Shown piece after piece: positions 5,217 through 24,673 of a stretch of 64,000 nucleotides of DNA (position 1 is its first letter; each line of letters begins with the position of its first letter). The notes under the pieces are model-generated. The model worked only from the letters and a program-made list of their open reading frames with translations, was not told the DNA's origin and did not search any database. The position numbers and the translations under genes are program-made. Source of the stretch: Muribaculaceae bacterium (GTDB lineage: Bacteria > Bacteroidota > Bacteroidia > Bacteroidales > Muribaculaceae); contig JAFRRT010000017.1 in the NCBI GenBank assembly GCA_017427945.1, positions 1-64,000 on the forward strand. The letters run 5' to 3'.

Positions 5217-5257
5217 TTTTCAAATAGTTTTAATAAAGAGCTTTCTGCTGTATCTTA

Positions 5258-5527
5258 TTAATCCCACATGCCAACGGGTTCTAGCTTCATGAAATCACCG
5301 CAGTTCGGGCAGGTGTAATCCCATTTTATCAGATTATTCTTCCTGCATCTGTCACATTCCTCGTAGCCTTCAAGAATCTGCCAATCATCATTAATTGGCT
5401 TTTCCATTATATGGTGACAGTCTTGGCAAATAAAAGTTTCCAGAAAAACGGCAAAACCAGGGCCCAATGACAATTCATCGGTTTCAAAACCACACATTTT
5501 ACATTTGAATATTGCTGTTGCTCCCAT
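5258..5527 (-). CDS. Double zinc-ribbon protein
   Basis: The 89 residues contain four CxxC pairs: CKMC and CQDC in the first half, CDRC and CPNC in the second. This is the spacing of two zinc ribbons. There is no catalytic motif, so it is most likely a small nucleic-acid- or protein-binding adaptor. The start MGATAIFKCKMC is tight against the first ribbon. It is the third gene of the WYL-operator operon; the upstream 398-aa gene ends 27 bases away. Confidence 0.6.
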   Translation of the reverse strand: MGATAIFKCKMCGFETDELSLGPGFAVFLETFICQDCHHIMEKPINDDWQILEGYEECDRCRKNNLIKWDYTCPNCGDFMKLEPVGMWD

Positions 5528-5554: not shown

Positions 5555-6751
5555 TTAGAATGGTAGTTCTTTGTTCGAATCGCTATTATCTATTATTTCA
5601 AGATTGAATTCATCAATGAAAGAATCAAAGTTTGGTTTCCTCATTAATTCAATTCGTTTTTTTCGAGATTCCAATTCTTCGTTGATTAAGTACCTGAATC
5701 TATCTGGAATACTCTCCATAACAATCGTATGGAACAAACTATAGTATTCTTGTGCGGAATAACAAAGCCAATACTCCTCTTCTCTTATTCTTCTGTCGAA
5801 CCAATATTGCACTCTTTTGTCCCATTCTTCAAATGCAATCAGCTCTTCGGTTAGACCAAGTTTCCCCATGCACCACAATACCCTTCTTACTACTTTAAAC
5901 CATTTTGTGGTTGGAACCAAGCCGTCAACCCTCCTAACTAACTCCATTCCTCTCCACATTGTTGAATTGTCTCCAATTTCAGTGTAAGACTCTGGTATTT
6001 CTTTATGATTAATTAACTGAGTAATAAGCCTCTTGTAAAGAATCCGTGTCGCTTCTCCTTTCTCCATACCACTCTTTGATATGGCAAGAATGTATAGGTA
6101 CTCGACATCATCTGGTCCCCAATAGATATGATCACATTTCGAAAAGCGTTTTTTATCAAACTGAAATTGGGGATGGTTGATTAATCGAGTACAAAGCCAT
6201 GAATAGTTTTCATCGGAGTCTAATAATGGCAAGTTCTCGATTATGTAATCTGTCGGCAAGAATCGTATCACAACCCGTTCGCAGTCTTTATCGTGGTACT
6301 TTTCCCATAATGCTTTTATGTCATCAGCGAAAAAGGCATCCCAGTTGCATTTTAGCTTTTTATATGCCCACACACGATCCCTTTTAGAACCAGCGAGGAA
6401 GGCTTTGAGAATTTTACGTTGGGAATGAAAATCCTGTTTATCGTATCTATCCTGGAGCTTTGGTCTTGAAATAGCCACTTTGCCACTTCGTTTGTCTGTG
6501 TACTGTTTCAGCAGGTAGGAAATGGGCTCATTCTTTTGGGGTTGATTTGTGTTAAGAACCTTTTCAATCTCATTATATAGCTCATTTCCTATGTTCGATG
6601 AAGAAGTGCCGCGTTTCAGTTTGCCTTGGAGTTCCTTCAATTCAGCATAATTGAGTGTATTGACTAAGGCCTTCAATACGGCACGGCAGCTGAAATCTTT
6701 ATACTTCGGCAGCTGGTAATGAGTAAGAATGTATTCTAACGCGTTATCCAT
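5555..6751 (-). CDS. Unknown 398-aa protein in HD operon
   Basis: I do not recognise this family. The protein is helical and rich in Lys, Trp and Tyr. A Lys/Arg-rich region at about 80-140 (KVAISRPKLQDRYDKQDF, KAFLAGSKRDRVWAYKK) could bind nucleic acid. Repeated motifs such as WLCTRLINHPQF and YILAISKSG suggest helical repeats. No signal peptide or membrane segment is present. It begins one base after the stop of the HD gene, so the two are almost certainly co-translated and may act together. It ends with a short acidic tail. Confidence 0.6.
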   Translation of the reverse strand: MDNALEYILTHYQLPKYKDFSCRAVLKALVNTLNYAELKELQGKLKRGTSSSNIGNELYNEIEKVLNTNQPQKNEPISYLLKQYTDKRSGKVAISRPKLQDRYDKQDFHSQRKILKAFLAGSKRDRVWAYKKLKCNWDAFFADDIKALWEKYHDKDCERVVIRFLPTDYIIENLPLLDSDENYSWLCTRLINHPQFQFDKKRFSKCDHIYWGPDDVEYLYILAISKSGMEKGEATRILYKRLITQLINHKEIPESYTEIGDNSTMWRGMELVRRVDGLVPTTKWFKVVRRVLWCMGKLGLTEELIAFEEWDKRVQYWFDRRIREEEYWLCYSAQEYYSLFHTIVMESIPDRFRYLINEELESRKKRIELMRKPNFDSFIDEFNLEIIDNSDSNKELPF

Positions 6752-6752: not shown

Positions 6753-7349
6753 TCATCCCCTTTCTAGCAAATGAGATGCTAGCCCATCAGCAGCTTGTAT
6801 TAATGACAGAAGAGGACAGGCTGCTTTTGCTGCTTGGAAGTTTCCCTTTATATCTGGAGACTGGAATGGTAGATCCCATGCATGCATGTGCCAACGGATG
6901 GCCATGATTTCGTCATCAGTGAGCTTTAAGCCGGCACGGAGCAACACTATTACCGACTTCTCGCCGTGTCCAAGCGGAAAGTTGCTGTACTCTACATCAT
7001 AGCCTTGAACGGGCACCCAAATGCCAAGTTTGTTCTTTTGCTTCTTAATAGCAGGTTTGTATATGTCCGCCTTGCACGTATCATGCAGCAGTGAGGCGAT
7101 GACCACACTCTCCACTGGTAACCGCTCTGCTAATGATGGGGCCATTTGGATCATCATATCACGCACTCCCATTGCCACCTTACACACATTGAGAGAATGA
7201 TCAGCCAACCCACCTGGTTGATTCAGGTGAAATCGGCTGCTTGCCGGAGCCTCAAAAAATCCCAACTCTTCAATAACCTTAATGGTTTCTTCAATGCCCT
7301 CGCGCCCAGTTCCTCTCAGCAATTCTATAAAACGTTCTCTATTATCCAT
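6753..7349 (-). CDS. HD-domain phosphohydrolase
   Basis: HD-superfamily metal ligands are visible: His51 in LADHSLNV, the His89-Asp90 pair in SLLHDTCK, and later HGEKSVIVLL and RWHMHAWD, the usual downstream histidines. Length (198 aa) fits a stand-alone HD hydrolase acting on a nucleotide or other phosphate ester; the substrate cannot be told. It is the first gene of a four-gene minus-strand operon (HD, 398-aa unknown, zinc ribbon, NTF2-like). Its promoter carries the 17-bp palindrome shared with the WYL, 253-aa and retron units, so it is probably co-regulated with them. Confidence 0.75.
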   Translation of the reverse strand: MDNRERFIELLRGTGREGIEETIKVIEELGFFEAPASSRFHLNQPGGLADHSLNVCKVAMGVRDMMIQMAPSLAERLPVESVVIASLLHDTCKADIYKPAIKKQKNKLGIWVPVQGYDVEYSNFPLGHGEKSVIVLLRAGLKLTDDEIMAIRWHMHAWDLPFQSPDIKGNFQAAKAACPLLSLIQAADGLASHLLERG

Positions 7350-7378: not shown

Positions 7379-7413
7379 CAAAGATAATTGAGAGCCACGA
7401 ACCGTATGTTCGC
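7379..7413 (-). promoter_or_regulatory. Promoter with WYL-type operator, HD operon
   Basis: On the minus strand a perfect -7 box TATCTTTG (7379-7386) is preceded, after exactly 10 bp, by the inverted repeat GCGAACATACGGTTCGT (7397-7413). The same palindrome and spacing occur upstream of the WYL regulator (20359-20393), the 253-aa gene (19269-19303) and the retron (18431-18465). The operator covers the -33 region, which suggests repression by a dimeric regulator. Confidence 0.75.
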
Positions 7414-7479
7414 TTAAAACTATTAATCCAGAATGTGAGTCCACAAGTCTATTTCGATATCAATCATTAGAATGCGAAT

Positions 7480-7519
7480 GAAAAAACATCAAGAGCAATC
7501 CAAAATTGCCCTTGATGTT
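7480..7519 (-). terminator. Intrinsic terminator of the toxin-antitoxin-chaperone operon
   Basis: Two 14-base arms (7486-7499 and 7505-7518) pair with a single mismatch around a 5-base loop. On the minus strand the stem is followed by six T. It sits about 35 bases past the SecB-like gene, as expected for the operon end. Confidence 0.8.
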
Positions 7520-7553
7520 TCTAATGATTATCGTTTTTGTGCAAATTGATAGA

Positions 7554-7988
7554 TTATTCTTTTGTCGTAAAAATCTTATGAATCAGTTCCATTGGTATGA
7601 GAGGAAGAATACATCCTTCAAGAGGTGTTTGCTTGAAGTTTTTCACCAAAAAGCCCCTCAATGCACCTATAACAATACTGATAAATGTATCCATTAATCG
7701 CGGTTCACTGACTTTGATACCATCCTTATCGGCGTCCAAAACTACTGTATCAAAAGGATCAACACCAAAAATAGCCTGAATTCCGTTTTCTGCTAGTTTG
7801 TTGCCGCTTTTATCATCATTTATTGTCACGACAAGTTCTATGATAATTGCTGATGCTGTTTTATCTGCACTTATACTGTGACTGAACCCAAAAGAAATAT
7901 CCCTTTTTTCAGGCACGTCTGATCCAAAAGGCAAGTCATAAGAATACCTCGTTTCAGTTATCCGCTGTATATTGTATTTGATTTCCAT
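7554..7988 (-). CDS. SecB-like chaperone of a toxin-antitoxin-chaperone system
   Basis: This 144-residue protein has the SecB-type plan: N-terminal alternating strands (ASAIIIELVVTIND), a GIQAIFGV strand, and a C-terminal helical segment with KQTPLEGCILPLIPMEL, like the conserved Pro-rich end of SecB-fold proteins. In toxin-antitoxin-chaperone (TAC) systems such as HigBA-Rv1957, a SecB-like chaperone protects the antitoxin. Here it is the third gene after a RelE/HigB-like toxin and an XRE antitoxin, only 3 bases from the antitoxin. The genome's export SecB would be elsewhere. The call rests on fold pattern plus context. Confidence 0.6.
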   Translation of the reverse strand: MEIKYNIQRITETRYSYDLPFGSDVPEKRDISFGFSHSISADKTASAIIIELVVTINDDKSGNKLAENGIQAIFGVDPFDTVVLDADKDGIKVSEPRLMDTFISIVIGALRGFLVKNFKQTPLEGCILPLIPMELIHKIFTTKE

Positions 7989-7991
7989 AAC

Positions 7992-8405
7992 TTAACCTAC
8001 TTCATACATTATCATGCTGCTTTCCTCAGCTATTTTTAATTCGCTACTCCATTTACATAAATGAGGTAATACCACACACTTGCCTTCGGCCGGTTTCTTT
8101 AATGGTTCATTAATTACACGATAAACTCTGATAAACTTAGTATCAAGAAGTTGGATATTAAGGAATCCCTCGATATCGGTCAGCGTATCAATAGTAAAGT
8201 TTCTATCCCCGGACAACCACTCAGAAATCTCAGATTCGGTTTTACCCATTTGCGCAGCCATCTGTTTTTGTGAAATTCCTTTTGCTTTCAGAGCATCAGC
8301 TATCCGCGCAGCAACCATCATTTTGTTACGAGTGCGTGCAAGACTCTTGCTGTCCATGTTTGCAAGCATCCTGCCCATTACACCTGTTGCTTTTCTCTTA
8401 ATCAT
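7992..8405 (-). CDS. XRE-family antitoxin (HigA-like) with C-terminal tail
   Basis: An N-terminal basic lead-in is followed by a Cro/cI helix-turn-helix at about residues 37-80 (KGISQKQMAAQMGKTESEIS). The ~50 residues after it, ending SSELKIAEESSMIMYEVG, are hydrophobic. In TAC systems such an extension (chaperone-addiction region) makes the antitoxin depend on its SecB-like partner. It overlaps the toxin gene by 8 bases and precedes the chaperone gene by 3. It probably represses its own operon through the palindrome at 8911-8938. Confidence 0.75.
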   Translation of the reverse strand: MIKRKATGVMGRMLANMDSKSLARTRNKMMVAARIADALKAKGISQKQMAAQMGKTESEISEWLSGDRNFTIDTLTDIEGFLNIQLLDTKFIRVYRVINEPLKKPAEGKCVVLPHLCKWSSELKIAEESSMIMYEVG

Positions 8406-8871
8406 AGTCCCAATTGTTGATTGTTAAACTTCCATCATCATTAATCACGATGTCTTTCTCAATAATTGCTTTATTGATAATTGAAGCAATCTCCTTCATT
8501 TGCTTGGCTTTTTCATTCAATTCTGGCACGTCTTGGTAGGCGCGTGCTTCAGGTGGCTTAAAACCACCAGAGCCAAAAATTACAGCCGTTCTATCAAAAT
8601 ACAGGCAATACAATCTTAGATTTCCTACCCTAAGAGCTGCGACTCCGTCACCAGGTAACCCTTCTTCATGCTTGAAATGATCTCGCCTGCACCCAATATC
8701 ATGGCCCATTACAAACAATTTCTCAAGTATGGTATTCAAATCATCCGCATATTGTTCATTGTCGTTAAAGAATTGTTCAAGTAGTGTGAACTCTTCATCT
8801 TTTATCAAGATAGAATAAATATGAGCCATTCCACCTGTAAGACTTTCATTTTCAACAATTTTAAACTGCAT
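8398..8871 (-). CDS. RelE/HigB-like toxin (Gp49-type)
   Basis: The 157-residue protein matches the RelE/HigB superfamily in its second half: LRVGNLRLYCLYFDRTAVIF (the conserved basic-aromatic strand pair), GSGGFKPP, and an ELNEKAKQMKEI helix. Toxins of this type cleave mRNA at the ribosome. It is first in the order toxin, antitoxin, SecB-like chaperone, the arrangement of HigBA-type TAC operons. The N-terminal ~60 residues are longer than in minimal HigB. The start at 8871 is 23-30 bases downstream of a -7 box. I infer the toxin function from pattern and neighbours. Confidence 0.65.
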   Translation of the reverse strand: MQFKIVENESLTGGMAHIYSILIKDEEFTLLEQFFNDNEQYADDLNTILEKLFVMGHDIGCRRDHFKHEEGLPGDGVAALRVGNLRLYCLYFDRTAVIFGSGGFKPPEARAYQDVPELNEKAKQMKEIASIINKAIIEKDIVINDDGSLTINNWDYD

Positions 8872-8900
8872 AAGATCTGTTTTCCATTATTTTTCGAGTG

Positions 8901-8938
8901 CAAATTAAATGAAAAATTCGGATATATCCAAATTTTTT
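8901..8938 (-). promoter_or_regulatory. TAC promoter and autoregulatory palindrome
   Basis: TTAATTTG (8901-8908, minus strand) matches the TAnnTTTG -7 box at 7 of 8 positions. Immediately upstream is a 26-bp palindrome (8912-8937, core GGATATATCC) with only one mismatched pair. It is placed where the HTH antitoxin would be expected to bind and repress. It is unrelated to the GCGAAC palindrome of the WYL-linked promoters. Confidence 0.65.
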
Positions 8939-8999
8939 ATCCAGAACTTGTTTCTAACTCACAAGAATTCTATAATTTTGACTTGATAAGTGACCTTCT

Positions 9000-10640
9000 T
9001 TATAGCAATGTAGCTGCGCTAAGGCGACCGTCTCTTTCCTTTATTGCTAATACTTGCAGCTCCTGGCCGTTAGTCACATTGGCGAGCAGTGACTGATGAA
9101 TATAACAGTCACCCACAAAGCCGAAGGCTTTACCTGCTTTATTGGTATTGACCCTCACATCTCCGCTCACTACCTCAAAATGCTGCACACCTTCTTGAGT
9201 GTCAATAGGCTTTATCTCTAACGCTTCTAAACCGCGCTCCCCATTGATATATTTCACCGTATAGAAATAGTAAGGTTGACATGATGGATGACGCGGTAGA
9301 CGTCCAGGGGGCAGTATTATAGATGTGCCATCGGGAGCAATCAGTTTTGCCCTTTTCTTGCCATTCTTGTTGTTGAAAGTCTTGCCATTGTAAAACATTA
9401 CAGCAGTCGGGGCGTCAGGATACATGAAAGACATCAACCGCTCTAGCTTATTGTCATATAGGCTCTGGTTGTTGGCAGGGGCTTGAGTGCCGGCAGGTAT
9501 TTTGCCAGCAAGTTCATAGTAAGGATCTCTAACCGCCCATCCTCGCTCTTGTCGAGCTTTGTGATAGGTCTCCAGTTCTCGTTTTGCGGCTGCATAGTTC
9601 CCCTCTTCAATCAGTTGTCCAGCAAGTTTCAGCCGTGTATCACCAAGGAACTGCTCGTCGCGTTGCATTGTAATGACCTTGCATAGAATGGCCTGCTTGA
9701 TTTCTCGGTCATCGATGATGTCAGCAAGTTCCTGCCATATATAGGGTTGTGGGAGTCTTTCGGTCACTTTTCTATAGGCAGTAACAGCCTCGTCAATATC
9801 ACCACGGGCAGCAAGCAGACGAGCATAATTCAACTCAAGCTTTCCATCTCTAGGGAATTTATTCCTAGCCTTTTCAATGAGTTGAACGAATTCGTCAGGG
9901 ACCAAGTTGATATGATCATCGAGCAGTTCCTTGCAGTAACGGCCTATTGCTTTCTCCACAAGACATGGCAGTTTCCTGCCATCATCAGTCGTGAACTGTT
10001 CCCAATCTTCTTCCGAAAAGTTTTCAAATCCCCACATCTCAAGAAATGTCGTAAACTTGAAATCATTCCTGAACTCGGTTTCGAGTTCAACAGCCATACG
10101 CAAGATGGACGAATGCAGTGGTGATGGCTTCTCGACCTTGAGTTTGAGATAAAGCGATAAGGCGCGCTTCACGTTGTAAGTCGCTTTTTTTTCTAACTGA
10201 TGTTTGGCATAGCGATACAGAATCCAACCCGCAGTCCTCTGCTGGAAGTCATCCAATCCAATCTCGTCGTTACAAACAATGTCCTTGATATCACCGAATG
10301 CTTTAACGACTGTGCGGCTATCCCTGGAATCTTGGTCAGCCTGCTTGATGATTGCCGTGAATGGTGATAGTTGTTGCTCCAAGAAGTTAACTTGCTTTTC
10401 GGCAACACTATCTTGCCCTGCTTCCATGCTGGGAAGTATTTCTTTCATTCTCTTGACCAATTCTGTGGCTTGATCTTTTTGGCCATTAGCCAGGCATTGT
10501 TTGCACATGTCATGCAACACCCAGAACAGAGCTCGATAACTCCACGCACTTTTGTCCTTTTCAAGGTCGGCATTAGCCATCTCGAGAGCCTCGTCGAGTT
10601 GGCCATTCTTGCGTAATTCATTGACATCCCTGTATGACAT
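9000..10640 (-). CDS. TPR protein with C-terminal OB/cold-shock-like domain
   Basis: The first ~350 residues are helical with tetratricopeptide character (DEALEMANADLEKDKSAWSY, LARLLAARGDIDEAVTAYRK, LAGQLIEEGNYAAAKRELE). The end (about 395-546) is a beta-rich nucleic-acid-binding-like region with YFYTVKYINGERGLEA and AFGFVGDCYIHQSLL, resembling a cold-shock/OB strand set. It is co-transcribed with the helicase gene, which ends 27 bases upstream. A scaffold-plus-helicase pair is a common defence layout, but I know of no proven function for this pair. Confidence 0.65.
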   Translation of the reverse strand: MSYRDVNELRKNGQLDEALEMANADLEKDKSAWSYRALFWVLHDMCKQCLANGQKDQATELVKRMKEILPSMEAGQDSVAEKQVNFLEQQLSPFTAIIKQADQDSRDSRTVVKAFGDIKDIVCNDEIGLDDFQQRTAGWILYRYAKHQLEKKATYNVKRALSLYLKLKVEKPSPLHSSILRMAVELETEFRNDFKFTTFLEMWGFENFSEEDWEQFTTDDGRKLPCLVEKAIGRYCKELLDDHINLVPDEFVQLIEKARNKFPRDGKLELNYARLLAARGDIDEAVTAYRKVTERLPQPYIWQELADIIDDREIKQAILCKVITMQRDEQFLGDTRLKLAGQLIEEGNYAAAKRELETYHKARQERGWAVRDPYYELAGKIPAGTQAPANNQSLYDNKLERLMSFMYPDAPTAVMFYNGKTFNNKNGKKRAKLIAPDGTSIILPPGRLPRHPSCQPYYFYTVKYINGERGLEALEIKPIDTQEGVQHFEVVSGDVRVNTNKAGKAFGFVGDCYIHQSLLANVTNGQELQVLAIKERDGRLSAATLL

Positions 10641-10667
10641 ATCTAATCCTCCCTTATGTTACTTTTG

Positions 10668-12713
10668 TTATTCATTTACCATGCCTTCGATGAGCCTCTT
10701 CAATTTCTCATCATCAGCTCCAAGTTCCGACATGGGCACAGCGGCAGAAAGGCCTTTCTCATTCACATAGAACTTGATGAGGGCAAATCGTGCATCGGTA
10801 ATCAGATGATATTCCACGTAATATTGTTTCAGCATCTCAACCACATTGACGATTTTGACATCAGTATCCAATGCAACGGTGGTAACACGCTGGAACAACT
10901 CACGCATCAGCTCATTGCTGGGCTCATAGTTGAAGTTTCTCGGCTCTGCCATGCTTGTATTAATCAGCTGGGCAAGCATATCTCTAGAAGAGCCGTCACC
11001 GGTAATAGGCACTAATTTGAAAAAGCCTGCTCCGTCATAATATACCTCGATGTGAACTTGCTCCCCCGTTGACGAGACAAAGTCGAATTTGTCTTGATAG
11101 TTGTAGGTGCCAACGTTCAGCAGTTTGAAGTCAGTGCCCCGAAGCGCTTCTTCAATGCCGAGGTGTTTCAGCCTTACTCCTATCAAGTCTGTGCTAGGGT
11201 GATAGGTTGTGGCCAAAGTGGAATCCTCTTGCCAGAAGTTTTTGGGTGCTTTCCCGAACTTGCCGATTGCCGTGAAGCTAAGTTTGTCGAACGAGGTGAT
11301 GTGCGGTGCATTTATAGCAAACAGTCTGTTTTTGGCACGTGTGGTGGCGGTGTAGCACCATCTCAAGTGGTCATCCGAAAGACCGCAACGACCGGCATAG
11401 TCCACAAATACGGTGTCCCATTCACCGCCTTGAGACTTATGACAAGTCACCGCATAGCCGAACTTGACCTTCAGGGCGTTGAAATAGGGGTCGTTGGTTA
11501 ACGCTTCCTTAAACTCGGGCGAACCCTCTTTCAACTGTTTATTCCTCAGAATGAAGTCAATATAAACGGCGTTTATCTGCCATACGCTCAAGTCCGATTC
11601 TCCGGAGTGTAAGAGATCGTCATAGACTTTGCAGGTGATGGTTATGTCTTCTTTGCTGAAGTACAGATCGATATCACGGAATGCCAAGTCGATGTGACGT
11701 TTCTCTCCCTTTATTGTTACAGGGATATTGGGGTGAATATCTACTTGACCAACACGAGTTACCTTGGCCATGTCTCCATTGAAAACCTGAAGTCCGTAGC
11801 TCTTGTAATTGTTGTTATTGATGATGACTATATCGCCTACCTGGACAGTTTCTTCACCAGGGAAAATGATGGACCGGATAGCACGGTTGACCTCAAAGCA
11901 ACGACGGTTAGAGAAACAGACGGTAATTCCGTTGCCAACTTCCGGCACGGGGAATTCATCAGTGAAGGTCCCAGGCAATGCTCCAGCCTGTAACTCAATG
12001 ATGTCCTTACCATCCGCATCCAGCGACAGATTATGACGAGCACCACGCGGGAGCGCCAACAGGTCACGCAATTTGGTCGCTTGAGCCAGGATGGCGTTGC
12101 TATCTTCTTGTCTTACAACCTCAGTCAGCTCTATGCTCTCGACTCGATGGCCAAGGCTCGATAGGTAATCCACATCGAGGGCGTAGGAATGAGGATCCAT
12201 GACTGGTGGCAGCTGAGCCGGGTCGCCAACGAAAATCACCTTCTCGATGCCGCACACTTTGACGTATTGGAGCAGGTCATTCAGCAGCACACCTGAGCCG
12301 AACCTTAGATAGTCGTTATGACTCTCCACATTGGAAATCATCGAGCTCTCATCGATAATCATGATTTGGAAATCCTGAGCCTGCTCTACGATAGGAAAAT
12401 ATAGCTGATAAGAACTGGTGGATTCGTCCTCCTCATCTTCCTTGCTGCAAATGATATCAAGATTGAAGATGAGGCGATGAATGGTCATGCCCTTCCCGAC
12501 GCGGTCACGCAGAACCTTAGCAGCACGGCCTGTCGGGGCCAGCACTTCATAGGGCGTCTTGTTTTCATCCAGATAGCGGGTGATATACTTGATCAAGTGA
12601 GTTTTACCGGTACCGGCATAACCATTAAGGACAAAGATGTCGCTATCATTGCCTAAGAAATCCTTGATTTTATCAAACGCTACTTGCTGAGATGATGTTA
12701 GAGGTTGCTCCAT
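10668..12713 (-). CDS. RecD/UvrD-like superfamily 1 DNA helicase
   Basis: All SF1 motifs are visible in the 681 residues: Walker A GYAGTGKTH (31-39), Ia LAPTGRAAKVL, Walker B IIDESSMIS, III FVGDPAQLPPV, V VTCHKSQGGEWDTVFVD and VI WCYTATTRAK. This is the RecD2/Dda-type order. The last ~180 residues are an extra domain of unknown role. Dda/RecD-like enzymes unwind DNA 5' to 3'. It heads a two-gene unit with the TPR/OB protein inside the defence island, so a defence or repair role for the pair is likely but unproven. Confidence 0.85.
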   Translation of the reverse strand: MEQPLTSSQQVAFDKIKDFLGNDSDIFVLNGYAGTGKTHLIKYITRYLDENKTPYEVLAPTGRAAKVLRDRVGKGMTIHRLIFNLDIICSKEDEEDESTSSYQLYFPIVEQAQDFQIMIIDESSMISNVESHNDYLRFGSGVLLNDLLQYVKVCGIEKVIFVGDPAQLPPVMDPHSYALDVDYLSSLGHRVESIELTEVVRQEDSNAILAQATKLRDLLALPRGARHNLSLDADGKDIIELQAGALPGTFTDEFPVPEVGNGITVCFSNRRCFEVNRAIRSIIFPGEETVQVGDIVIINNNNYKSYGLQVFNGDMAKVTRVGQVDIHPNIPVTIKGEKRHIDLAFRDIDLYFSKEDITITCKVYDDLLHSGESDLSVWQINAVYIDFILRNKQLKEGSPEFKEALTNDPYFNALKVKFGYAVTCHKSQGGEWDTVFVDYAGRCGLSDDHLRWCYTATTRAKNRLFAINAPHITSFDKLSFTAIGKFGKAPKNFWQEDSTLATTYHPSTDLIGVRLKHLGIEEALRGTDFKLLNVGTYNYQDKFDFVSSTGEQVHIEVYYDGAGFFKLVPITGDGSSRDMLAQLINTSMAEPRNFNYEPSNELMRELFQRVTTVALDTDVKIVNVVEMLKQYYVEYHLITDARFALIKFYVNEKGLSAAVPMSELGADDEKLKRLIEGMVNE

Positions 12714-12796
12714 AATTCTTGTCGGTTTTTACTGACTTTTGCAGCAAAAACCATGCCAAATAATAACTCTTACTATCAATCTACTGTGTTGCACAC

Positions 12797-12817
12797 AAAA
12801 GGGCACAATATCCCTTT
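12797..12817 (-). terminator. Weak terminator after the retron operon
   Basis: AAAGGG and CCCTTT arms around an 8-base loop, followed on the minus strand by TTTTG, lie 25-45 bases past the end of the 604-aa gene. The stem is short, so partial read-through into the helicase operon is possible. I could not pick a clear separate promoter for the helicase in this 128-bp gap. Confidence 0.45.
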
Positions 12818-12841
12818 CTCTGACTCTTAATGAGTACATTA

Positions 12842-14656
12842 CTATCGTTTCTTCAGCATAGGAAGAATTACATTATTAAAGACTTTCTTAAACTGTTCAA
12901 TACTAAATGAACAAATCCCTTCATGAGCGCCCTTGTTTCTTTCATTTACCAGTTGGAGTATATCTGATAGGTCGTCTGAAAGAATATTATAGAACAAGTA
13001 TAACGGAATAATAATTTGCGATGGTTTTGCCTTTTCATCAGGGTCTTCCCATCCAGGATTAACAGTTAAGAGCGGTTGTTTATAGCACTGTACACCTATA
13101 TATTTTTTTCTTTTGCTATTCTCTTTCTGAGTTTGAAAGAGAACCCGCCTTTTCCAATGTCCGACCGAGAGTGAGCCCTTAAATAATTCCGTGCCAATCA
13201 GCTTAAATTCTTCCCTTTCAATGTAAGTCTCAAAGAAAGCATATAATGTTAGCACACAGGCTCTCAATAATTCTGACCGGTTTTTTCCATTATCAATCTT
13301 TATTAATGACAAGAACTCGTAAAGTAATGATAAATCATCTTCAGAATAACCAAGTTTCTTTTGAAGCTGCTCTAATTCGTTATACCATTCTTTCAAATAG
13401 CTCATGTTACAAGCTGCCTTTATTGCATTAAAGAACTCATTAAAACCGCGATATGATTCATCTCTAGACAAATTCTGCTCAGGTGATTCCTTCATGGCAT
13501 ACCCACTTGCTCCAATTTCTAAAAGCTCTTCTTTCAAATTCCATACTTTATTTGATGCAGAAAATACAACAATCTGATTATACGGATTAAGCCCAACTCT
13601 TTTATTATCCTTGTCCTTGTCTTTTTTTACAATATACCTAGCTATTTTATGACCACTTAATTCTGAGTATTTTAAGGTTTCTTGGAAATCCTCATCATGG
13701 AGCCTTAAATCAATGATATAACAATCTGCGCAGCCATTATCCTCATAATCTTTATCAAGGAATCTTATAATGTCTTGAATAAGATCGTTTTTATTAATAG
13801 ATTTTTGTAAATCTAAAAAAGGATATGTAATTAATTCTGCACCAGATCCAGATAAGATAGTTGCCAAAATAGCGGCCCATCCTTTATTTGCTTCATCATC
13901 GATATATACAATTCTGCGGTTCTTAAGAATATGACTTTTCGGAATCTGGTTCTTCTTTTTCCTGCCATAATGCTCTCTTTGTCCAGCTGAACACATTAGA
14001 TATTTAAAGTACAGCATGTTAGCAAAATCTTCATTAGGCAACGATGGCTCTTCCCCTTCTTTCCATAAAAACATCTCTTTCCAGCGTATAATAGCCCATT
14101 CATTTGCAATAGAATGATGAGTAGCGTAGTTAGCTGGAACTGGTATTGTCTTTAGATATTGTAGAAGTGACTGATATTCAAAAGAATTCATCACTTCTTC
14201 ATTCGTTTGAGATTTAGCAGGAACTAGATCGTATATTTTTTTAATCATATTTGAGATCCGCTCTTCTTCTTTTACGGACGACCTAAAAACATTAGTTGAG
14301 TTTAACAATGCACATAAAGGCGAGAAAAGCATTATCTCATTAATGTTGTCGGGTCCTAAAAATAGAATCGGTGTTCTAAGACAATTCCATTCTGGAGTCA
14401 AACGGATGTGGGCAGCAACTCTTAACCCTGAAAATTCTGTATAAGTTTCACTTAGATTATATGGTAATATAATCAAGTCATAATGATTATCTTTCAAGAA
14501 CTCCAGTTCTGAACATGTAAACGTATCAAAATCCGGAACATCAGTAGGAGGAAGAGCAAATGGATGAGGTGATAAATCAATTCCTTTTTCATTCAGAGAT
14601 GAAGGAAACAATAAGTACTCAGGTAAATTATTATTATGTAATACAAGAACTTTCAT
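12842..14656 (-). CDS. Receiver-domain protein with HEPN-like C-terminus, retron operon
   Basis: The N-terminal ~130 residues form a degenerate receiver-like fold (DLIILPYNLS). A second, canonical receiver spans about 247-400: acidic IDDE, phosphoacceptor Asp in YIIDLRLHDED, Ser in VVFSASN and Lys in YAMKESP. The last ~200 residues are helical and end with ERNKGAHEG: Arg573 and His578 form an Rx4H motif typical of HEPN ribonucleases. HEPN RNases are frequent toxic effectors in defence systems, so this is the best effector candidate of the retron operon. It overlaps the previous gene by one base. Confidence 0.6.
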   Translation of the reverse strand: MKVLVLHNNNLPEYLLFPSSLNEKGIDLSPHPFALPPTDVPDFDTFTCSELEFLKDNHYDLIILPYNLSETYTEFSGLRVAAHIRLTPEWNCLRTPILFLGPDNINEIMLFSPLCALLNSTNVFRSSVKEEERISNMIKKIYDLVPAKSQTNEEVMNSFEYQSLLQYLKTIPVPANYATHHSIANEWAIIRWKEMFLWKEGEEPSLPNEDFANMLYFKYLMCSAGQREHYGRKKKNQIPKSHILKNRRIVYIDDEANKGWAAILATILSGSGAELITYPFLDLQKSINKNDLIQDIIRFLDKDYEDNGCADCYIIDLRLHDEDFQETLKYSELSGHKIARYIVKKDKDKDNKRVGLNPYNQIVVFSASNKVWNLKEELLEIGASGYAMKESPEQNLSRDESYRGFNEFFNAIKAACNMSYLKEWYNELEQLQKKLGYSEDDLSLLYEFLSLIKIDNGKNRSELLRACVLTLYAFFETYIEREEFKLIGTELFKGSLSVGHWKRRVLFQTQKENSKRKKYIGVQCYKQPLLTVNPGWEDPDEKAKPSQIIIPLYLFYNILSDDLSDILQLVNERNKGAHEGICSFSIEQFKKVFNNVILPMLKKR

Positions 14657-15246
14657 TATATTTTGGAGTTACGTATTTCTTTTATTATTTCTTTTTCAAT
14701 AAAATCAGATGATAATGGATGATCATCCCCGCTTTCGCTAATGAGTGTTCTTAATTCATATTCTTTTTCGTTATTGCCACCAAGCCACATGATATTTCGG
14801 TATTGCATTAATAATGACAATCTCCATGACTTTCCATATAGCAATTCAAGTAGGGGTTCAGCACATTCATTATTCGCAAAACGGCTTAATATTTCAACAA
14901 GATTCTGCTGATAGAAATATGCTACATTTATATTTAATCTTTTGCGATTATTCATAAGAAGATTCTGCGTGATACCACCGCTGAATACTATAAAAAATTT
15001 ATTAAAACGTTTGGCATACTCTTCGATGGTATTGCGAACATTCGCCTGTGCCATCCATGAAAGATGGATAGCAATAAGTGAATATCCTGACAGTTCTAAC
15101 TCTAAATCGTCCTTTGTTGTTGGCAATTTCGTTTTTATTGAGAGCCATCCTTCATTCTCGCACTTGACAAGACCTGATAAGCCATTATTGTCCATTAACG
15201 TTTTTCTTCTCTCTGGCCTATCATCTACAATGATAACTTTATTCAT
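14656..15246 (-). CDS. Pseudo-receiver protein, retron operon
   Basis: The 196-residue protein has a response-regulator start (VIIVDDRPERR, Asp8-Asp9). At the phosphoacceptor position it reads IAIHLSW, with His instead of Asp, and the usual Lys near AYFYQQN is missing. IVFSGG keeps the conserved Ser. It is therefore probably a non-phosphorylated pseudo-receiver used for protein contact. The C-terminal ~70 residues are helical and unrecognised. It overlaps the upstream 393-aa gene by 8 bases and the downstream gene by 1, so the three are translationally coupled. Confidence 0.6.
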   Translation of the reverse strand: MNKVIIVDDRPERRKTLMDNNGLSGLVKCENEGWLSIKTKLPTTKDDLELELSGYSLIAIHLSWMAQANVRNTIEEYAKRFNKFFIVFSGGITQNLLMNNRKRLNINVAYFYQQNLVEILSRFANNECAEPLLELLYGKSWRLSLLMQYRNIMWLGGNNEKEYELRTLISESGDDHPLSSDFIEKEIIKEIRNSKI

Positions 15247-16420
15247 GCTTGTAAGAATAAAAAGTTAATATATATGTGAATCCAGGACATTGTTCAGCCT
15301 CTATTTCTTCAACTCTGGGTAACAGTGTACTAGATGACGATAAATAGTTAATTCTGCAATGCTTCAATTCTTCATTTATTCTAAATCTACTTTCAATAGA
15401 GAAGTCGCAGAGATTCAACAGTCTTTCTTTTATTCGACAAAGATCGCCTTCTCCACCTTTAGCAACGATTTTTGCATCATTAATATCTTTGTCTGCAAAA
15501 GAGGCTTCTTGCAAAATCCTTAATTGAATTGCTTCGTTATCGTTTTCAGTTATTAGCTTACTGCTAATCTTTATATTTGGATACTCTGAACGCTGGAAAA
15601 TGTTGCGAGCAATAATTCCTAATGCATCTTTAACAAGTTCCGTGTCTGTGTAGAATGAGCGTCCTCTGAGGGTGCTAAGTTGTTCTTGATTTATTATGTG
15701 ATCTGGACTACTCTTAAATATTTCCTTCACCGAGAAAAACAAATCGTTATCACGGAACTCAATGCATCGTTTGAATATATCCACTACATCACTAAAATAA
15801 ATTAGCATTTTTCCGTTAATTAACGACTTAGGTTGAAATATCTCTGGTAACGTGGAAATTGGCATTGAAAATGGTTGATTGCCTGGGTTCGTGTCCATCC
15901 ATTCCTTAAGATATTGATTGTAACCAATCTTAAGTTTATATTGACTCCAAGAATATTTTGCATCATCATTAACTAAAAAGTTTCTAATAATCTGCCATAA
16001 ATGATTACATAGAAGCCTTATCTCATCTAATGGATGACCTTCAGCGGCTTCTAAAATCTTAAGATATTCTTTTTTGAATTCATCAAATGATGCATATGGA
16101 TACTCTCCGGTGTCAGTTTTTCTGTCCCAAAAGTGAGAGGTATATTTTAAGGCCAGGGTATTATTGTCGGTAAATTGGTGCAAAAAAGCAACAATCCGTT
16201 GGGGTGTATGATGCGTACTTGTATTTTGACTGGTAATATCTGAAGTAAGGGTTGTTGAAGAATAATCTGTGGTCAATGAATTCATATTGTCTTCACTGTC
16301 AATTATATCTGACGAACAACACCTTGCTAAAAGCAAATCTCTTTTCTTTATCTGAGCCCTTGTGAGGCTTTTGTTATGAAGTATAAAACTTAGGAAGTAT
16401 TGTTTCTCTCTATTGCCCAT
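15239..16420 (-). CDS. Unknown 393-aa protein, retron operon
   Basis: I do not recognise this protein. A Ser/Thr-rich low-complexity segment lies at about 45-72 (DYSSTTLTSDITSQNTS). The rest is mixed helix and strand. The last ~100 residues (IQLRILQEASFAD, RFRINEELKHCRINYL, GFTYILTFYSYKHE) resemble in rhythm the closing strands of a GHKL ATPase, but I see no N-box. It begins 35 bases after the RT gene and overlaps the pseudo-receiver, so it belongs to the retron operon. With receivers next door, a sensor role is a guess only. Confidence 0.55.
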   Translation of the reverse strand: MGNREKQYFLSFILHNKSLTRAQIKKRDLLLARCCSSDIIDSEDNMNSLTTDYSSTTLTSDITSQNTSTHHTPQRIVAFLHQFTDNNTLALKYTSHFWDRKTDTGEYPYASFDEFKKEYLKILEAAEGHPLDEIRLLCNHLWQIIRNFLVNDDAKYSWSQYKLKIGYNQYLKEWMDTNPGNQPFSMPISTLPEIFQPKSLINGKMLIYFSDVVDIFKRCIEFRDNDLFFSVKEIFKSSPDHIINQEQLSTLRGRSFYTDTELVKDALGIIARNIFQRSEYPNIKISSKLITENDNEAIQLRILQEASFADKDINDAKIVAKGGEGDLCRIKERLLNLCDFSIESRFRINEELKHCRINYLSSSSTLLPRVEEIEAEQCPGFTYILTFYSYKHE

Positions 16421-16455
16421 TTGTTCTGTTTGAGTTTATTCGTATCTAATACTGC

Positions 16456-18198
16456 TCAAATTGAGTACTCAAGTACGTCCCAATCGACATCATCAACATC
16501 GATAATGCTACTATCAGTTCCAGTATCATATTGTCTATGTTGATCAATGACCTTTTTAGTATTTTGGGGAAGCTTTTCACCCAAGCCTACAATATATTGC
16601 TCATGCTTCTCTTGGGATGATTCAAGAACGCCAGGATTATTCTCCTTAGATAGAACCCCGTTTTCGTTAATATTAGAACCTTCTTTGGAATTATTATTCT
16701 TGAAGTTACTAACATTAATACTGTTCATAAAAGCGCTAACGGCTGAATCAAGACCAAGTGTGTCCCAGATATCCAGAAGTTCATCAATATTGACTTGTGC
16801 ATTCTGGATACTTAGATATATTGATCGTAATGGTTTAAACTCAGTTATAAGCCAAAAGTTTTTGCCTTTAGAACGGCACAGGGTTACATGGCATTCCGGC
16901 AATAAGTCAGAAGTGATCACATCGCCAGGCTTCTTCTTTTCCAAATCTGGACATAACTTCTTTTGAGTCGATTTGCTGATTGCGATGGTTTTGTCCATAC
17001 CACATAGCACACAACGACCCACAAGTTTATTCCTTGCAGAAATTTCAAGAACGATGCTAGTGGAGAAATCTTGGCAAAATTCAGCCATTTTATATGGCTG
17101 CACATAGATATAGGACTCTCCTTTATCGGTTTCATTATCTATAAATACAAGTTGTTGTAGCTTGTCGTATCGTGCTTGTAGTTTAAGATATGCCGCATTG
17201 TTACTACCGCGAACCATGCGCAAGTAGTTGAGTTTTCCGCCAATCACATTCTCCATGACTGGTTCACCTTTCTTGATATAGCCTTTTTCTTTTTTGTATT
17301 TAGGATAGAACTTACTATAAGCCTTAGAGTATCCTTCAGTCTCCCAAATATGTAAGATCCAACGAAGATATTTAACATAATGCCGACTTACATTTACAGT
17401 GCTATTTACGGTTAGACCGGTCACTTCTTGGCGCTGTCCATCACGAAGCAATCTTGTTTTCTTTTCATTCATCTTGAATCCCTGCTCCTCGATAATACGC
17501 TTGATCTCAAGACGGAAATCACTTCCCTCGTGATACACATTGTGCATGCTAGAAAAAGTCATGTCATCAGCATAACGGCTATAATGAAGGCCGAATCGTT
17601 TTGCAACACCTTTCATTCTCCTATCAAGCGTATCGCAAATTGCATTCGTCAGCAAAGGTGATGTAGCTGCTCCTTGAGGAAGCACATTAGTCCCGTCTGC
17701 ATTGGGATGGCAACAAAGCCCAGCCACCACATTCGCTATTTCTTGGCTAAAGTTAAAGGGTGGCAATTGAAGTCTTGCCCACACGCGAGGTTGTGGGATC
17801 GAGGGGAAGAAATCCTTGAGATCAATATTGAATACGTAGTGATGACCTACATGGCATTGTGCATTGCTCACAACAGAGCGACCCTCAGCAAAGCCATTTA
17901 CACAATCATTGGGTGTGAAAACAGCCTTGAGTATCTTATTTAAAAAATAAAGAATTATTTTAAGTTGATAGCACGGTGCATTAATCTCTCTTATTCCTCC
18001 ACTCTTTTTCTTAATCTGGAACGTCTTGTATCGTTTGTCAGCTATTTTAGGACTGGAGAAATGACGCAATTGTTTGGCTGTAATTGGGAATTCCATCGTG
18101 CCAAACTCCTCACATTTCATCTTGTTCAGAATAAAGGCAAGATGTCTCACCGTTTTCATTTTCTGTGACAGTTCGAATATTTTGTCTCTCTCCATCAT
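16456..18198 (-). CDS. Retron reverse transcriptase with C-terminal extension
   Basis: RT motifs appear in order: INAPCYQLK, NGFAEGRSVVSNAQCHVG with the retron-specific NAxxH (112-116), NIDLKDFFPSI (124-134), LPQGAATSPLLTN (173-185) and the catalytic YADD (209-212). The thumb-associated VTG (259-261) is the second retron hallmark. After ~340 residues of RT comes a ~240-residue extension with CVLCGM, ending in an acidic tail (SIIDVDDVDWDVLEY). Retron RTs copy part of the adjacent ncRNA into msDNA. The ncRNA lies 10 bases upstream, and three accessory genes follow in one operon. No group II intron maturase domain is present. Confidence 0.9.
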   Translation of the reverse strand: MMERDKIFELSQKMKTVRHLAFILNKMKCEEFGTMEFPITAKQLRHFSSPKIADKRYKTFQIKKKSGGIREINAPCYQLKIILYFLNKILKAVFTPNDCVNGFAEGRSVVSNAQCHVGHHYVFNIDLKDFFPSIPQPRVWARLQLPPFNFSQEIANVVAGLCCHPNADGTNVLPQGAATSPLLTNAICDTLDRRMKGVAKRFGLHYSRYADDMTFSSMHNVYHEGSDFRLEIKRIIEEQGFKMNEKKTRLLRDGQRQEVTGLTVNSTVNVSRHYVKYLRWILHIWETEGYSKAYSKFYPKYKKEKGYIKKGEPVMENVIGGKLNYLRMVRGSNNAAYLKLQARYDKLQQLVFIDNETDKGESYIYVQPYKMAEFCQDFSTSIVLEISARNKLVGRCVLCGMDKTIAISKSTQKKLCPDLEKKKPGDVITSDLLPECHVTLCRSKGKNFWLITEFKPLRSIYLSIQNAQVNIDELLDIWDTLGLDSAVSAFMNSINVSNFKNNNSKEGSNINENGVLSKENNPGVLESSQEKHEQYIVGLGEKLPQNTKKVIDQHRQYDTGTDSSIIDVDDVDWDVLEYSI

Positions 18199-18208
18199 GA
18201 CTTATTAA

Positions 18209-18418
18209 AAGGCGGTCTTCTCAGATGTGATGCGAACTCTTTTTCTTTGTTTTTGTAATCTTGAACAGTTTAAAATGAGGTTCTCTACAAATCAGTCAAA
18301 GACTGTAATAAAATATAACCTTGGTTTATCAATTCTTTTTTTAGAAGAATGACATCCGACAGTAGCATCGGACCAGAATTCAAAATTTGTTTCACATCAC
18401 TCTTTCAAAGACCGCCTT
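18209..18418 (-). ncRNA. Retron ncRNA (msr-msd)
   Basis: An 11-nt perfect inverted repeat bounds the element: a1 AAGGCGGTCTT at 18408-18418 and a2 AAGACCGCCTT at 18209-18219, with further complementarity inside (TGATGTGAAAC against GTTCGCATCA). Downstream of a1 come two msr-like hairpins, TCCGA/TCGGA (18355-18372) and ATTCTT/AAGAAT (18332-18350). A small CAGTC/GACTG hairpin (18293-18305) follows in the presumed msd half. A perfect TATCTTTG box (18431-18438) places the transcript start just before a1. Size (~210 nt) and position directly before the RT fit known retrons. The msr/msd border and branching G are not resolved by eye. Confidence 0.8.
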
Positions 18419-18430
18419 GTTTTTATGTTG

Positions 18431-18465
18431 CAAAGATAATAATTGTTAGCGAATTGTATGTTCTG
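18431..18465 (-). promoter_or_regulatory. Retron promoter with WYL-type operator
   Basis: TATCTTTG (18431-18438, minus strand) is the -7 box. After exactly 10 bp lies CAGAACATACAATTCGC (18449-18465), the most diverged member of the shared palindrome. It matches the 3' half-site TTCGC and the GAACATA half, losing only the outer GC. It implies that retron expression answers to the WYL regulator encoded 1 kb away. Confidence 0.65.
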
Positions 18466-18479
18466 ATATCTGAGAAAAA

Positions 18480-19241
18480 TTAAGATCCCTCTTGTTTTGT
18501 ATCTATAGCCAAGCATAGCCCTTTGATATAGTTCCAGTATAAATCTCCGTTCTTGACTAACGTTTGAACATTTTCTTGGCCATCGGTTGTCTTGTCAAGC
18601 GTTTGAATTCTCTGAACCAAAGCAGCCATCCTTTCAAAGCAGTAATTGCCTACAAGAGGTTGAAGGTGCAGGGCTACATATGGACACACTAAAGACCAAT
18701 TTTCAGTCAGTTCTAGCAAAGTGCGAAGATGATATGGATTATTTTCCAAACCAATTGTAGCACTGCTGGAGATAAGTTTCCGGATTTCTCGTAGCATCCA
18801 GTCTTTATAATTGTTGCAGATGTCACGCACATTTGCTAATGCGCCTATCCAGACATGGTCATAGTTTGTGCTCCATGAGTGATCTCGATTGGACATTACA
18901 ACTGTATGTGGTGACAAGAAACCCCCTCCAAATAATCTATAATTGTCCTTGCCATATTGAGCCATCGAAATAAACTTTTTATCAAGACGGCCATTATAGG
19001 CTGCCAATGAAATAGGCAAGAGAAGTACACCATGCACGAACACATTTATCCATATATACTCTTGATGGCGAGCCGTGGGATAGAAGTTGGTCCGTATTTC
19101 GAACCTAAAGATGCCACAGGTGAACTCATCTTTCCCATTGGTCCAGCCAATTCTATCATGAGTATCGAAAACAACTTCATTTGAACCTGTTTCCTTCAAT
19201 GAGAATTGTTTTGTTTGAAAATCGTAGAAAAGGTGTTCCAT
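18480..19241 (-). CDS. Unknown 253-aa protein under the WYL-type operator
   Basis: The family is not recognised. The N-terminal half is beta-rich (FDTHDRIGWTNGKDEFTCGI, FRFEIRTNFYPTARHQEY) with WINVFVHGVLLLPISLAA. The C-terminal half is helical with LRTLLELTENWSLVCPYV. No signal peptide or clear membrane span and no catalytic motif are visible. It follows the WYL gene, but its promoter lies inside the WYL 3' end and carries the shared palindrome. It therefore behaves as its own unit of the regulon. A defence or accessory role is inferred from position only. Confidence 0.6.
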   Translation of the reverse strand: MEHLFYDFQTKQFSLKETGSNEVVFDTHDRIGWTNGKDEFTCGIFRFEIRTNFYPTARHQEYIWINVFVHGVLLLPISLAAYNGRLDKKFISMAQYGKDNYRLFGGGFLSPHTVVMSNRDHSWSTNYDHVWIGALANVRDICNNYKDWMLREIRKLISSSATIGLENNPYHLRTLLELTENWSLVCPYVALHLQPLVGNYCFERMAALVQRIQTLDKTTDGQENVQTLVKNGDLYWNYIKGLCLAIDTKQEGS

Positions 19242-19268
19242 ATTGCTATTATTATTTGTTTAACGCCA

Positions 19269-19303
19269 CAAAAGTAAAACCGCCCAACGAACTCTATGTT
19301 CGC
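19269..19303 (-). promoter_or_regulatory. Promoter with WYL-type operator, 253-aa gene
   Basis: TACTTTTG (19269-19276, minus strand) fits TAnnTTTG. Ten bases upstream is GCGAACATAGAGTTCGT (19287-19303). The operator overlaps the WYL stop codon (19294-19296), so regulator coding sequence and target operator are interleaved. The start codon is at 19241, about 20 bases past the expected transcript start. Confidence 0.75.
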
Positions 19304-20331
19304 AAGCTGGCATAACCTTCCATCATGGCTTGGATCCGCTCTCGGACGGCCTTCTGGATGTGCCCGGGTGAAAGTACGATGACATCAGGTCCATAGGAAC
19401 AGAGTTCGCGGACGAGCTCGTAGTTACGGATGCAATTAATGCTGTAGAACTTTCCTCCCTTTAAGGATGGATACTTGGTGTACAATTCAGAACTTCGTTC
19501 GTCCTTAAGATTCCTTTGGCTGCCATGAATGGGTTTGGTTTCAATATAACCCGTTACGTTGTCGCTAGCCCAGAAGACTATTTCCTCAACTGGTTCACCC
19601 TCATAGTAAGTGATGCCGATAATGTCCTCATATCGCTCGGTCAAATCTTCAGGACAAAGGCGATAGCTCCTATCAAGGATCGGTTCTACTCTAATGATGC
19701 GGTCCAGGGCAAAAGTAAGTATCTTACCATCACTATCAGCTCCTCCGATAACATACCAACGGTTGTTATACTGCTTTAGCAGATACGGATGGAAGTCAAT
19801 CGCTTTTTGCGTATCCACACTGAAAGTCCGATAGGTAAGATTCACGGCAACCTTATTGGCAATATAAGTGAATAACGTGCCCAACAGGTTGCTGTTTTTG
19901 AGGTACGGGTTGTTGCTGAAGTAGATGATCTTTTCATGCTCGTTTATACCAAGCTTTGCCTTGAATTTCTCCAACCACTCGAAATTATCAAGCCCATCGA
20001 ACTGACCGATGGTTTCCAATACCTCACAAAGCAAGTTCCGCTCTTCGTTGCTCAGCTTCTTATTAAATATCGAGAACGCCGGGTCTGCATAACGGACACA
20101 TCGCTTGCCTGCCTCTGACTTATAGCGTTCTATCTCCGCAAAGACAGGGGCATACTCAAGATCGACAATATCTTTCTCAATGCATCGCTTAGTAACACCC
20201 TCAAGTCCATCTTTTGAAAGCCTTACTTCAACGATATCAGTCAAGTCTTGAATGCTATAGTTATGCATCCTGTCTGAGAGCAGCTCGTCCAGGATTAGAT
20301 ATCGGTTGAAAGCGTTCTTGTTACTTGGCAT
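19294..20331 (-). CDS. WYL-domain transcriptional regulator
   Basis: A winged-helix N-terminus (NRYLILDELLSD, CIEKDIVDLEY) is followed by a WYL domain: KAIDFHPYLLKQYNNRWYVI, FALDRIIRVEPI and a WCX-like end with SYGPDVIVLSP. WYL regulators (BrxR/CapW/DriD type) bind nucleic-acid or nucleotide signals and often repress defence operons. I start it at ATG 20331 (345 aa). The longer TTG start at 20361 would lie inside the TACTTTTG promoter box, so it cannot be on the mRNA. Its promoter carries the palindrome found at three further island promoters, the signature of autoregulation plus a small regulon. Confidence 0.85.
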   Translation of the reverse strand: MPSNKNAFNRYLILDELLSDRMHNYSIQDLTDIVEVRLSKDGLEGVTKRCIEKDIVDLEYAPVFAEIERYKSEAGKRCVRYADPAFSIFNKKLSNEERNLLCEVLETIGQFDGLDNFEWLEKFKAKLGINEHEKIIYFSNNPYLKNSNLLGTLFTYIANKVAVNLTYRTFSVDTQKAIDFHPYLLKQYNNRWYVIGGADSDGKILTFALDRIIRVEPILDRSYRLCPEDLTERYEDIIGITYYEGEPVEEIVFWASDNVTGYIETKPIHGSQRNLKDERSSELYTKYPSLKGGKFYSINCIRNYELVRELCSYGPDVIVLSPGHIQKAVRERIQAMMEGYASLRT

Positions 20332-20358
20332 GATTCTATCACTTTTGTTTGACGGTGG

Positions 20359-20393
20359 CAAAAGTATAAAATTTTTGCGAACCGTATGTTCGC
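20359..20393 (-). promoter_or_regulatory. WYL gene promoter and operator
   Basis: TACTTTTG (20359-20366, minus strand) with the perfect inverted repeat GCGAAC-N5-GTTCGC (20377-20393) 10 bp upstream. This is the most symmetric of the four sites and the likely autoregulatory one. The expected transcript start leaves a ~20-base leader before ATG 20331. Confidence 0.8.
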
Positions 20394-22228: not shown

Positions 22229-22297
22229 CGCCTGTATGTTTTAGATTAGTGATTAGTTCCTTCACATGACACCTTTCGGCATATCAATAGTTGTGGT

Positions 22298-24672: not shown

Positions 24673-24673
24673 A

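Follow-up and report, generated by a model that had tools for sequence, protein, structure and literature searches.

How the many systems within one defence island are coordinated is so far poorly understood, and the possibility that several of them answer to one regulator is raised by a stretch of 64,000 nucleotides from a Muribaculaceae bacterium (GenBank assembly GCA_017427945.1, contig JAFRRT010000017.1, positions 1 to 64,000; hereafter, the window). A first-pass annotation of this DNA proposed that one regulator of the WYL family controls four units of the island through a shared palindrome. The four palindromes do lie on the minus strand where it placed them, exactly 10 bp upstream of a TAnnTTTG box in 4/4 cases, and they head the promoters it named: those of the WYL gene itself, of a 253-aa gene, of the leader of a retron-type reverse transcriptase (RT) gene and of an operon that begins with an HD-domain gene (operators 1 to 4, Table 1). 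PMC7366714 describes TAnnTTTG as the -7 element recognised by the primary sigma factor of Bacteroidetes. The cassette of palindrome, spacer and box tracks one clade of WYL regulators and heads unrelated immune modules, at four promoters here and at dozens elsewhere, and the WYL protein very probably controls these promoters through the palindrome.

The palindrome was searched as a 17-mer, GCGAACATANNNTTCGY, and, joined to its box, as a composite, GAACATANNNTTCG-N11-TANNTTTG, in the 2.77-Mb genome (39 contigs), with the reversed pattern as a control. Operators 1, 2 and 4 match the 17-mer without mismatch and are its only perfect copies in the genome, where two one-mismatch copies are also present outside the window; operator 3 has two mismatches, both in the left half. 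The 17-mer alone at up to 3 mismatches gives 10 matches in the window against 9.3 expected, which is not significant, and at up to 2 mismatches it gives 20 in the genome, fewer than the 36 of the reversed control. The composite, by comparison, is found four times without mismatch, at the four operators, not at all with one or two mismatches and four times with three, while the reversed composite yields five matches at up to three mismatches over the whole genome. Significance rests on the composite with its box and not on the loosened 17-mer; a motif common elsewhere in the genome, which the first-pass annotation had named as refuting evidence, was looked for in this way and was not seen. Within 230 bp upstream of the 16 genes from the WYL gene to the 1011-aa gene, TAnnTTTG boxes precede only the WYL, 253-aa and HD genes, all of them linked to an operator, and the retron box falls just beyond that limit, about 240 bp upstream of the RT gene. 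A promoter and terminator scan of the sequence gave results near the shuffled expectation. It flagged operator 1 as a hairpin, but a terminator reading was rejected, since the operators are not generally trailed by T-rich sequence, lead into a promoter box and keep their loop in a single orientation.

The link between cassette and regulator was followed in both directions (L numbers denote loci and G numbers genomes), and both support the shared regulon proposed at first pass. With the WYL protein as query, genome contigs yielded 41 relatives. Among the 18 close ones (L029-L046, 42-75% identity), 16 have two to four sites at up to 2 mismatches, the exceptions being L038 and L044, the contig of the latter ending inside the WYL gene, whereas 22 of the 23 distant ones (L047-L069, 25-35%) have no match even at 3 mismatches; the single distant match (L065, up to 3 mismatches) has a defective box. 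Conversely, across 297 family genomes the composite at up to one mismatch has 54 places, spread over 30 genomes, and its reversed control has 7. A WYL search of 29 of these 30 carriers (the window's own genome was left out) and of 29 of the 267 non-carriers, with close relatives defined by E below 1e-85, found a close relative in 20/29 carriers and in 1/29 non-carriers (G643), the sampled non-carriers all coming from the window's genus and the carriers from several genera. In each of the 20 WYL-positive carriers at least one site shares contig and strand with the WYL gene, its distance ranging from an overlap with the gene's end to 9.5 kb; G414 and G496 have further sites on other contigs. In loci with a WYL gene, each of the 73 scored sites lies on the strand of that gene. 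The nine carriers without a close WYL relative have one-mismatch matches exclusively, and seven of them have a single match.

The search was widened to 393 genomes of the order, 20 of which have a match at up to one mismatch: 10 places in four of the five genomes with a close WYL relative, and 18 places in 16 other genomes, one of them before an HD gene in G178. Since the count is about that of the reversed control (25), the isolated matches across the order are mostly chance. IMG/VR contains three exact copies of the pattern, one of which (L124) adjoins a WYL gene of 48% identity that has a site in its own promoter as well. The plasmid and phage collections yielded WYL relatives only below 34% identity, and the eight viral loci from the A1 profile search (L131-L138, 29-33%) have no site. 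A WYL gene with a disrupted frame was also observed at L128:9785-10789 (56% identity), with no cassette within the 19.5 kb fetched.

The modules headed by the cassette vary widely among these islands. Among the 18 close relatives, it stands in the WYL gene's own promoter in 10 and before the gene upstream of WYL in two more, and it heads the gene after WYL in 12; in 12/18 the next-gene operator overlaps the WYL stop codon (CGA ACA TAG or CGA ATA TAG), as operator 2 does in the window, where ..CGA ACA TAG encodes Arg-Thr-stop. The 253-aa gene that follows matches neither a Pfam nor a PADLOC family at E 0.01. RT loci account for 19 of the 35 loci scanned, and in 17/19 the site lies 270-342 bp upstream of the RT gene. 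Some of these loci (L127, L198-L211) were chosen for the presence of the motif in their genomes, which leaves the RT link as the sole independent evidence that they give; among loci fetched through WYL alone, 7/8 RT genes have such a site, the site of L045 lying about 700 bp upstream. Other modules under the cassette include a Cas13b gene (PADLOC 2.3e-181) with an array of clustered regularly interspaced short palindromic repeats (CRISPR) of 66-bp period in L041, a Shosta pair in L035 (ShosA 6.6e-45, ShosT 4.1e-11; homologues in L036 at 67-80% and further ones in L199, L200 and L211), OLD-like ATPases in L029 and L031 (homologues in L032, L037, L039, L040, L200 and L206), UvrD helicases in L033 and L034 (an 89% homologue in L046) and an OST-HTH/DUF3825 protein in L040. 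L036 belongs to a cultured strain, Phocaeicola faecalis FXJYN30E22. The type VI-B Cas13b gene and CRISPR array (L041:1261-5643) are flanked by two WYL cassettes. In L040 two cassettes 1.3 kb apart (11028 and 12328) have identical 33-bp cores and head different genes.

What the regulator does at these promoters may be judged from their geometry. The motif derived from 46 sites (45 distinct) reads R-CGAAC-ATA-GnG-TTCG-Y, a near-random 10-bp spacer and TAmCTTTGCA, so that the axis of the palindrome lies 19 bp upstream of the -7 box, in the place of the -33 element. Counted with a fixed operator on the WYL strand of L029-L046 and of window positions 1-21000, the box stands at 10 bp behind 23/23 perfect operators, 16/17 with one mismatch and 6/57 with two, and at another distance behind none; the opposite strand has three chance boxes, at 9, 12 and 18 bp. 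A symmetric query with a free centre, counted on the WYL strand, placed the box at 10 bp in 28/28 perfect, 41/41 one-mismatch and 46/48 two-mismatch pairs. When the spacing was left free in the 297 family genomes, 39 perfect matches were found in 24 genomes, 32 of them at 10 bp (four being the window's), and the other seven were spread over five distances, one of them (9 bp, contig 8 of G416) being possibly real. The palindrome is moreover oriented toward the promoter, because its central A-T is kept on the upstream side alone (24/28 perfect symmetric sites, the mirror image in 0/28), an orientation that also holds in 33 distinct sites that do not overlap a WYL stop codon. Earlier position counts were partly biased, their pattern naming the upstream A-T, and a repeat with the symmetric query gave the same result; a count of operators reversed in place was dropped as a test, since the palindrome matches itself at 2-3 mismatches. 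TTG at 18-21 bp from the box is found in 0/46 sites against 44/138 background boxes, a weak test in this phylum, and TTG at 17 bp in 7/46 sites.

The regulator itself has a winged helix-turn-helix (wHTH), a WYL domain and a WCX domain. Pfam reports WYL at 6.4e-12 (45.7 bits, cut-off 21.8) and WCX at 2.2e-06 (28.3 bits, cut-off 23.9) and no helix-turn-helix match; the winged domain is seen at the N-terminus of the structural model (helices 7-18, 27-40 and 48-59, strands 67-71 and 77-81). The likely start codon of its gene is the ATG at 20331 (345 aa), since the TTG at 20361 given in the list of open reading frames falls within the -7 box. An earlier fold from 18 sequences, with a predicted template modelling score (pTM) of 0.39, was replaced by a model from 45 sequences (predicted local distance difference test 86.4, pTM 0.61). 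Foldseek matches that model best to DriD (1.2e-13), followed by PafBC (7.5e-13), CapW (1.2e-8) and BrxR (2.4e-7); VIA-align 2, in which DriD aligns across residues 6-343, again ranks DriD best and places CapW and BrxR above PafBC.

The regulon is well supported by sequence, and we infer from it that the WYL protein binds the palindrome, controls its targets jointly and does so in response to a signal. In the mechanism proposed here, a wHTH-WYL-WCX dimer would bind R-CGAAC-ATA-GnG-TTCG-Y in each target promoter; its WYL domain would bind a signal of damage or phage, by analogy most likely single-stranded nucleic acid; and the ligand-bound protein would recruit RNA polymerase to promoters without a -33 box, so that the WYL and 253-aa genes and the retron and HD operons might be switched on together. 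Activation is preferred because the spacing is near-invariant, the palindrome is oriented, its axis occupies the -33 place and the best match of the model is DriD; geometry and fold fit a DriD-like activator better than a repressor of the BrxR/CapW type. The first-pass annotation is retained as to one WYL protein, a shared palindrome and several units, whereas geometry and fold point more to activation than to the repressor precedent that it cited. Taken as a whole, a regulon of one WYL protein acting by DriD-like activation is the account we favour, with reasonable rather than strong confidence.

The same regulon could also be run by repression, the WYL dimer sitting over the -33 region in the manner of BrxR or CapW, at its own gene included, until a ligand releases it on phage attack or damage. 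Autoregulation is common among repressors, and the cassette in the WYL gene's own promoter counts for this reading, as do distant members of the family: nine WYL loci (L052-L056, L059-L061 and L067) have another palindrome, TGCAA-N5-TTGCA, with TTG in its right half, TTG/TTTG at the -33 place and a somewhat variable distance from axis to box (24 bp in six loci, 25 in one and 26 in two). BrxR and CapW do repress, and one BrxR site overlaps the -35 element, in the available text of PMC9122601, PMC9122588 and PMC9122589. A repressor, however, needs neither near-invariant spacing across diverged spacers nor a fixed orientation of its palindrome, and the repressor sites described in those texts differ in place, being found downstream of -10, on -10 or on -35. 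Repression is accordingly rated as a real but clearly less probable alternative to activation.

Two further explanations would deprive the WYL protein or the regulation of its leading part. The palindrome might be read by some other protein, be it a regulator of the host or a special sigma factor, with the WYL gene as one more target, and sites do occur where no close WYL relative was detected, in 9/29 motif-bearing family genomes and before the HD gene of G178. Set against this are the two-way link with a single WYL clade and the position of a site on the WYL contig and strand, within about 9.5 kb, in 20/20 genomes; the matches in the unlinked genomes are moreover of the one-mismatch and mostly single kind (7/9) that reversed controls also yield, and the -7 box is the housekeeping one (PMC7366714). 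We regard another reader as improbable. Still harder to credit is the idea that the cassettes are mainly recombination sockets for the swapping of modules, with regulation secondary. The modules do differ among islands while the cassette stays, as with the two identical cores of L040, but conservation follows the spacing, the box and the orientation while the spacer sequence is not conserved, and a role in recombination would add to regulation and not replace it. A bolder version of the activator reading is put forward tentatively, as somewhat short of an even chance: the 33-38-bp operator-promoter would be a standard socket through which newly acquired modules join one DriD-like, nucleic-acid-sensing activator, and the island would behave as a small interferon-type response with exchangeable effectors. 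Retron, toxin-antitoxin, helicase-nuclease or Cas13b CRISPR modules would then be exchangeable under a single activator.

Comparison with known regulators shows both precedents and differences. DriD, a WYL activator of Caulobacter, shares with the window protein the wHTH-WYL-WCX fold, at 14-15% identity in structural alignments, and a preprint (PMC12340889) places its sites at one distance from -10, centred on a poor -35 element, where DriD activates. The resemblance extends to a pseudo-palindrome in the -35 region of several promoters; the targets, however, are DNA-damage genes (didA, bapE, recJ and dnaG) and not defence modules as here. In the promoters studied here, as in those of the DriD/PafBC type, the site is at one fixed distance in the -35/-33 region, with few other spacings (7/39 and 2/48), and the -33 element is poor or absent, the latter a weak test in this phylum. 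PafBC of mycobacteria, second in Foldseek, is likewise a WYL activator that acts where sigma normally contacts -35, but it is a heterodimer with a -26 motif and a DNA-damage regulon. The palindromes in the promoters of a defence locus and of the regulator's own gene are, in turn, features of the BrxR/CapW type. BrxR is a WYL regulator of defence islands that binds inverted repeats, is found beside diverse systems and has a pair of sites (R-BOX1 and R-BOX2) within a single island, that of pEFER; unlike the favoured model it is a repressor, with sites downstream of -10 or on -35, and a standard cassette before several unrelated systems was not met in the text available. CapW of the cyclic-oligonucleotide-based antiphage signalling system (CBASS) has a palindromic operator with an effect on its own gene as well, but its site overlaps -10 and it represses one system. 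The genes of CapK/CapS and RptR are likewise neighbours of various immune operons or part of a defence island; the former is a kinase with a STAS-like repressor and the latter a small repressor, and their abstracts do not describe them as WYL proteins. Precedents thus exist for paired sites of one WYL regulator within an island (pEFER) and for WYL activators of fixed geometry; among the titles and abstracts listed by literature searches there is no report of one promoter cassette, nearly the same each time, in front of many unrelated immune systems. Such a promoter code is legible in raw sequence and names the likely members of a regulon, can flag new defence modules (the 253-aa and 398-aa genes, both uncharacterised, are examples) and makes induced as opposed to constitutive immunity testable with one regulator deletion. 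If the reading is true, adaptive (Cas13b) and innate systems would share one switch.

Table 1. Coordinates of the operators, -7 boxes and genes in the window
Feature	Position	Strand	Basis or relatives
Operator 1, WYL gene's own promoter	20377..20393	-	palindrome and composite match
-7 box TACTTTTG of WYL promoter	20359..20366	-	10 bp after operator 1
WYL regulator, 345 aa from ATG (probable start), wHTH-WYL-WCX	19294..20331	-	Pfam, alignment of 18 sequences, model
Operator 2, promoter of 253-aa gene	19287..19303	-	overlaps WYL stop codon
-7 box TACTTTTG of 253-aa gene	19269..19276	-	
253-aa gene	18480..19241	-	homologues after WYL in L030 (31%) and L199 (40%)
Operator 3, retron leader promoter	18449..18465	-	left half weaker
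-7 box TATCTTTG of retron leader	18431..18438	-	
Probable retron noncoding RNA (msr-msd) leader	18199..18424	-	5' end approximate; fold and covariation
Retron-type RT, 580 aa	16456..18198	-	Pfam RVT_1 1.4e-21
HisKin-conflict protein, retron operon	15239..16420	-	Pfam 1.3e-47; same order in L198 and L211
196-aa protein, retron operon	14656..15246	-	no Pfam match; 42% homologue in same place in L211
iREC plus HEPN-like protein, retron operon	12842..14656	-	same place in L198 (25%) and L211 (39%)
PIF1-like helicase with TBP-TOTE (PADLOC PDC-M16A)	10668..12713	-	after iREC in L198 (31%)
TPR protein (PADLOC PDC-M16B)	9000..10640	-	after helicase in L198 (31%)
Operator 4, HD operon promoter	7397..7413	-	same cassette before HD operon in L029
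-7 box TATCTTTG of HD operon	7379..7386	-	
HD-domain gene, first of operon	6753..7349	-	Pfam HD 0.00039, 21.1 bits, just under gathering score 22
398-aa gene, HD operon	5555..6751	-	86% identical homologue in L029, same order
89-aa and 106-aa genes, HD operon	4896..5527	-	same order in L029

The unit under operator 3 is a predicted retron, for it combines an RT with an adjacent structured noncoding RNA. The leader folds with z = -5.4 and has compensatory changes at 12/45 consensus pairs across seven loci, with a slightly unfavourable RNAalifold covariation term (+0.68), and an Rfam search of it gave no match. The best PADLOC models for the RT are RT-Protease_XI (8.1e-105) and RT-TIR_XII (2.9e-98). 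In L198 one cassette leads a run of RT, HisKin, 213-aa, iREC, PIF1, TPR and WYL genes, in which homologues of the window's RT, HisKin, iREC, PIF1 and TPR proteins follow in the same order at 25-62% identity; the 213-aa gene has no match. Because the same gene run stands under one cassette there, the helicase and TPR genes probably belong to the retron operon, and the segment 18198-9000 may represent a large multi-protein retron system with a similar order in L198 and, partly, in L211.

As to the HD operon, an orphan cassette is present in G178 (L129:6978-7616), a genome that is 99% complete and has no WYL relative at E 1e-15, where the gene headed by the cassette shares 54% identity with the window's HD gene. 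HD homologues occur at nine places in 8/393 genomes and have the site only in the window and in G178, so that there is no general tie between the site and the HD family. A second HD homologue in genome G000 (contig 39:25641-26222, 53%) has no cassette.

Between the TPR gene and operator 4 (7554-8871) lie genes of 157 aa, 137 aa (helix-turn-helix) and 144 aa that resemble a toxin-antitoxin pair plus one more gene, with no TAnnTTTG box within 230 bp. Upstream of the island, a block at 21881-36918, in which the composite site is absent, contains a tyrosine integrase recognised by Pfam and, judged by inspection, genes of McrB/McrC-like, DNA methyltransferase and Mrr-like type.

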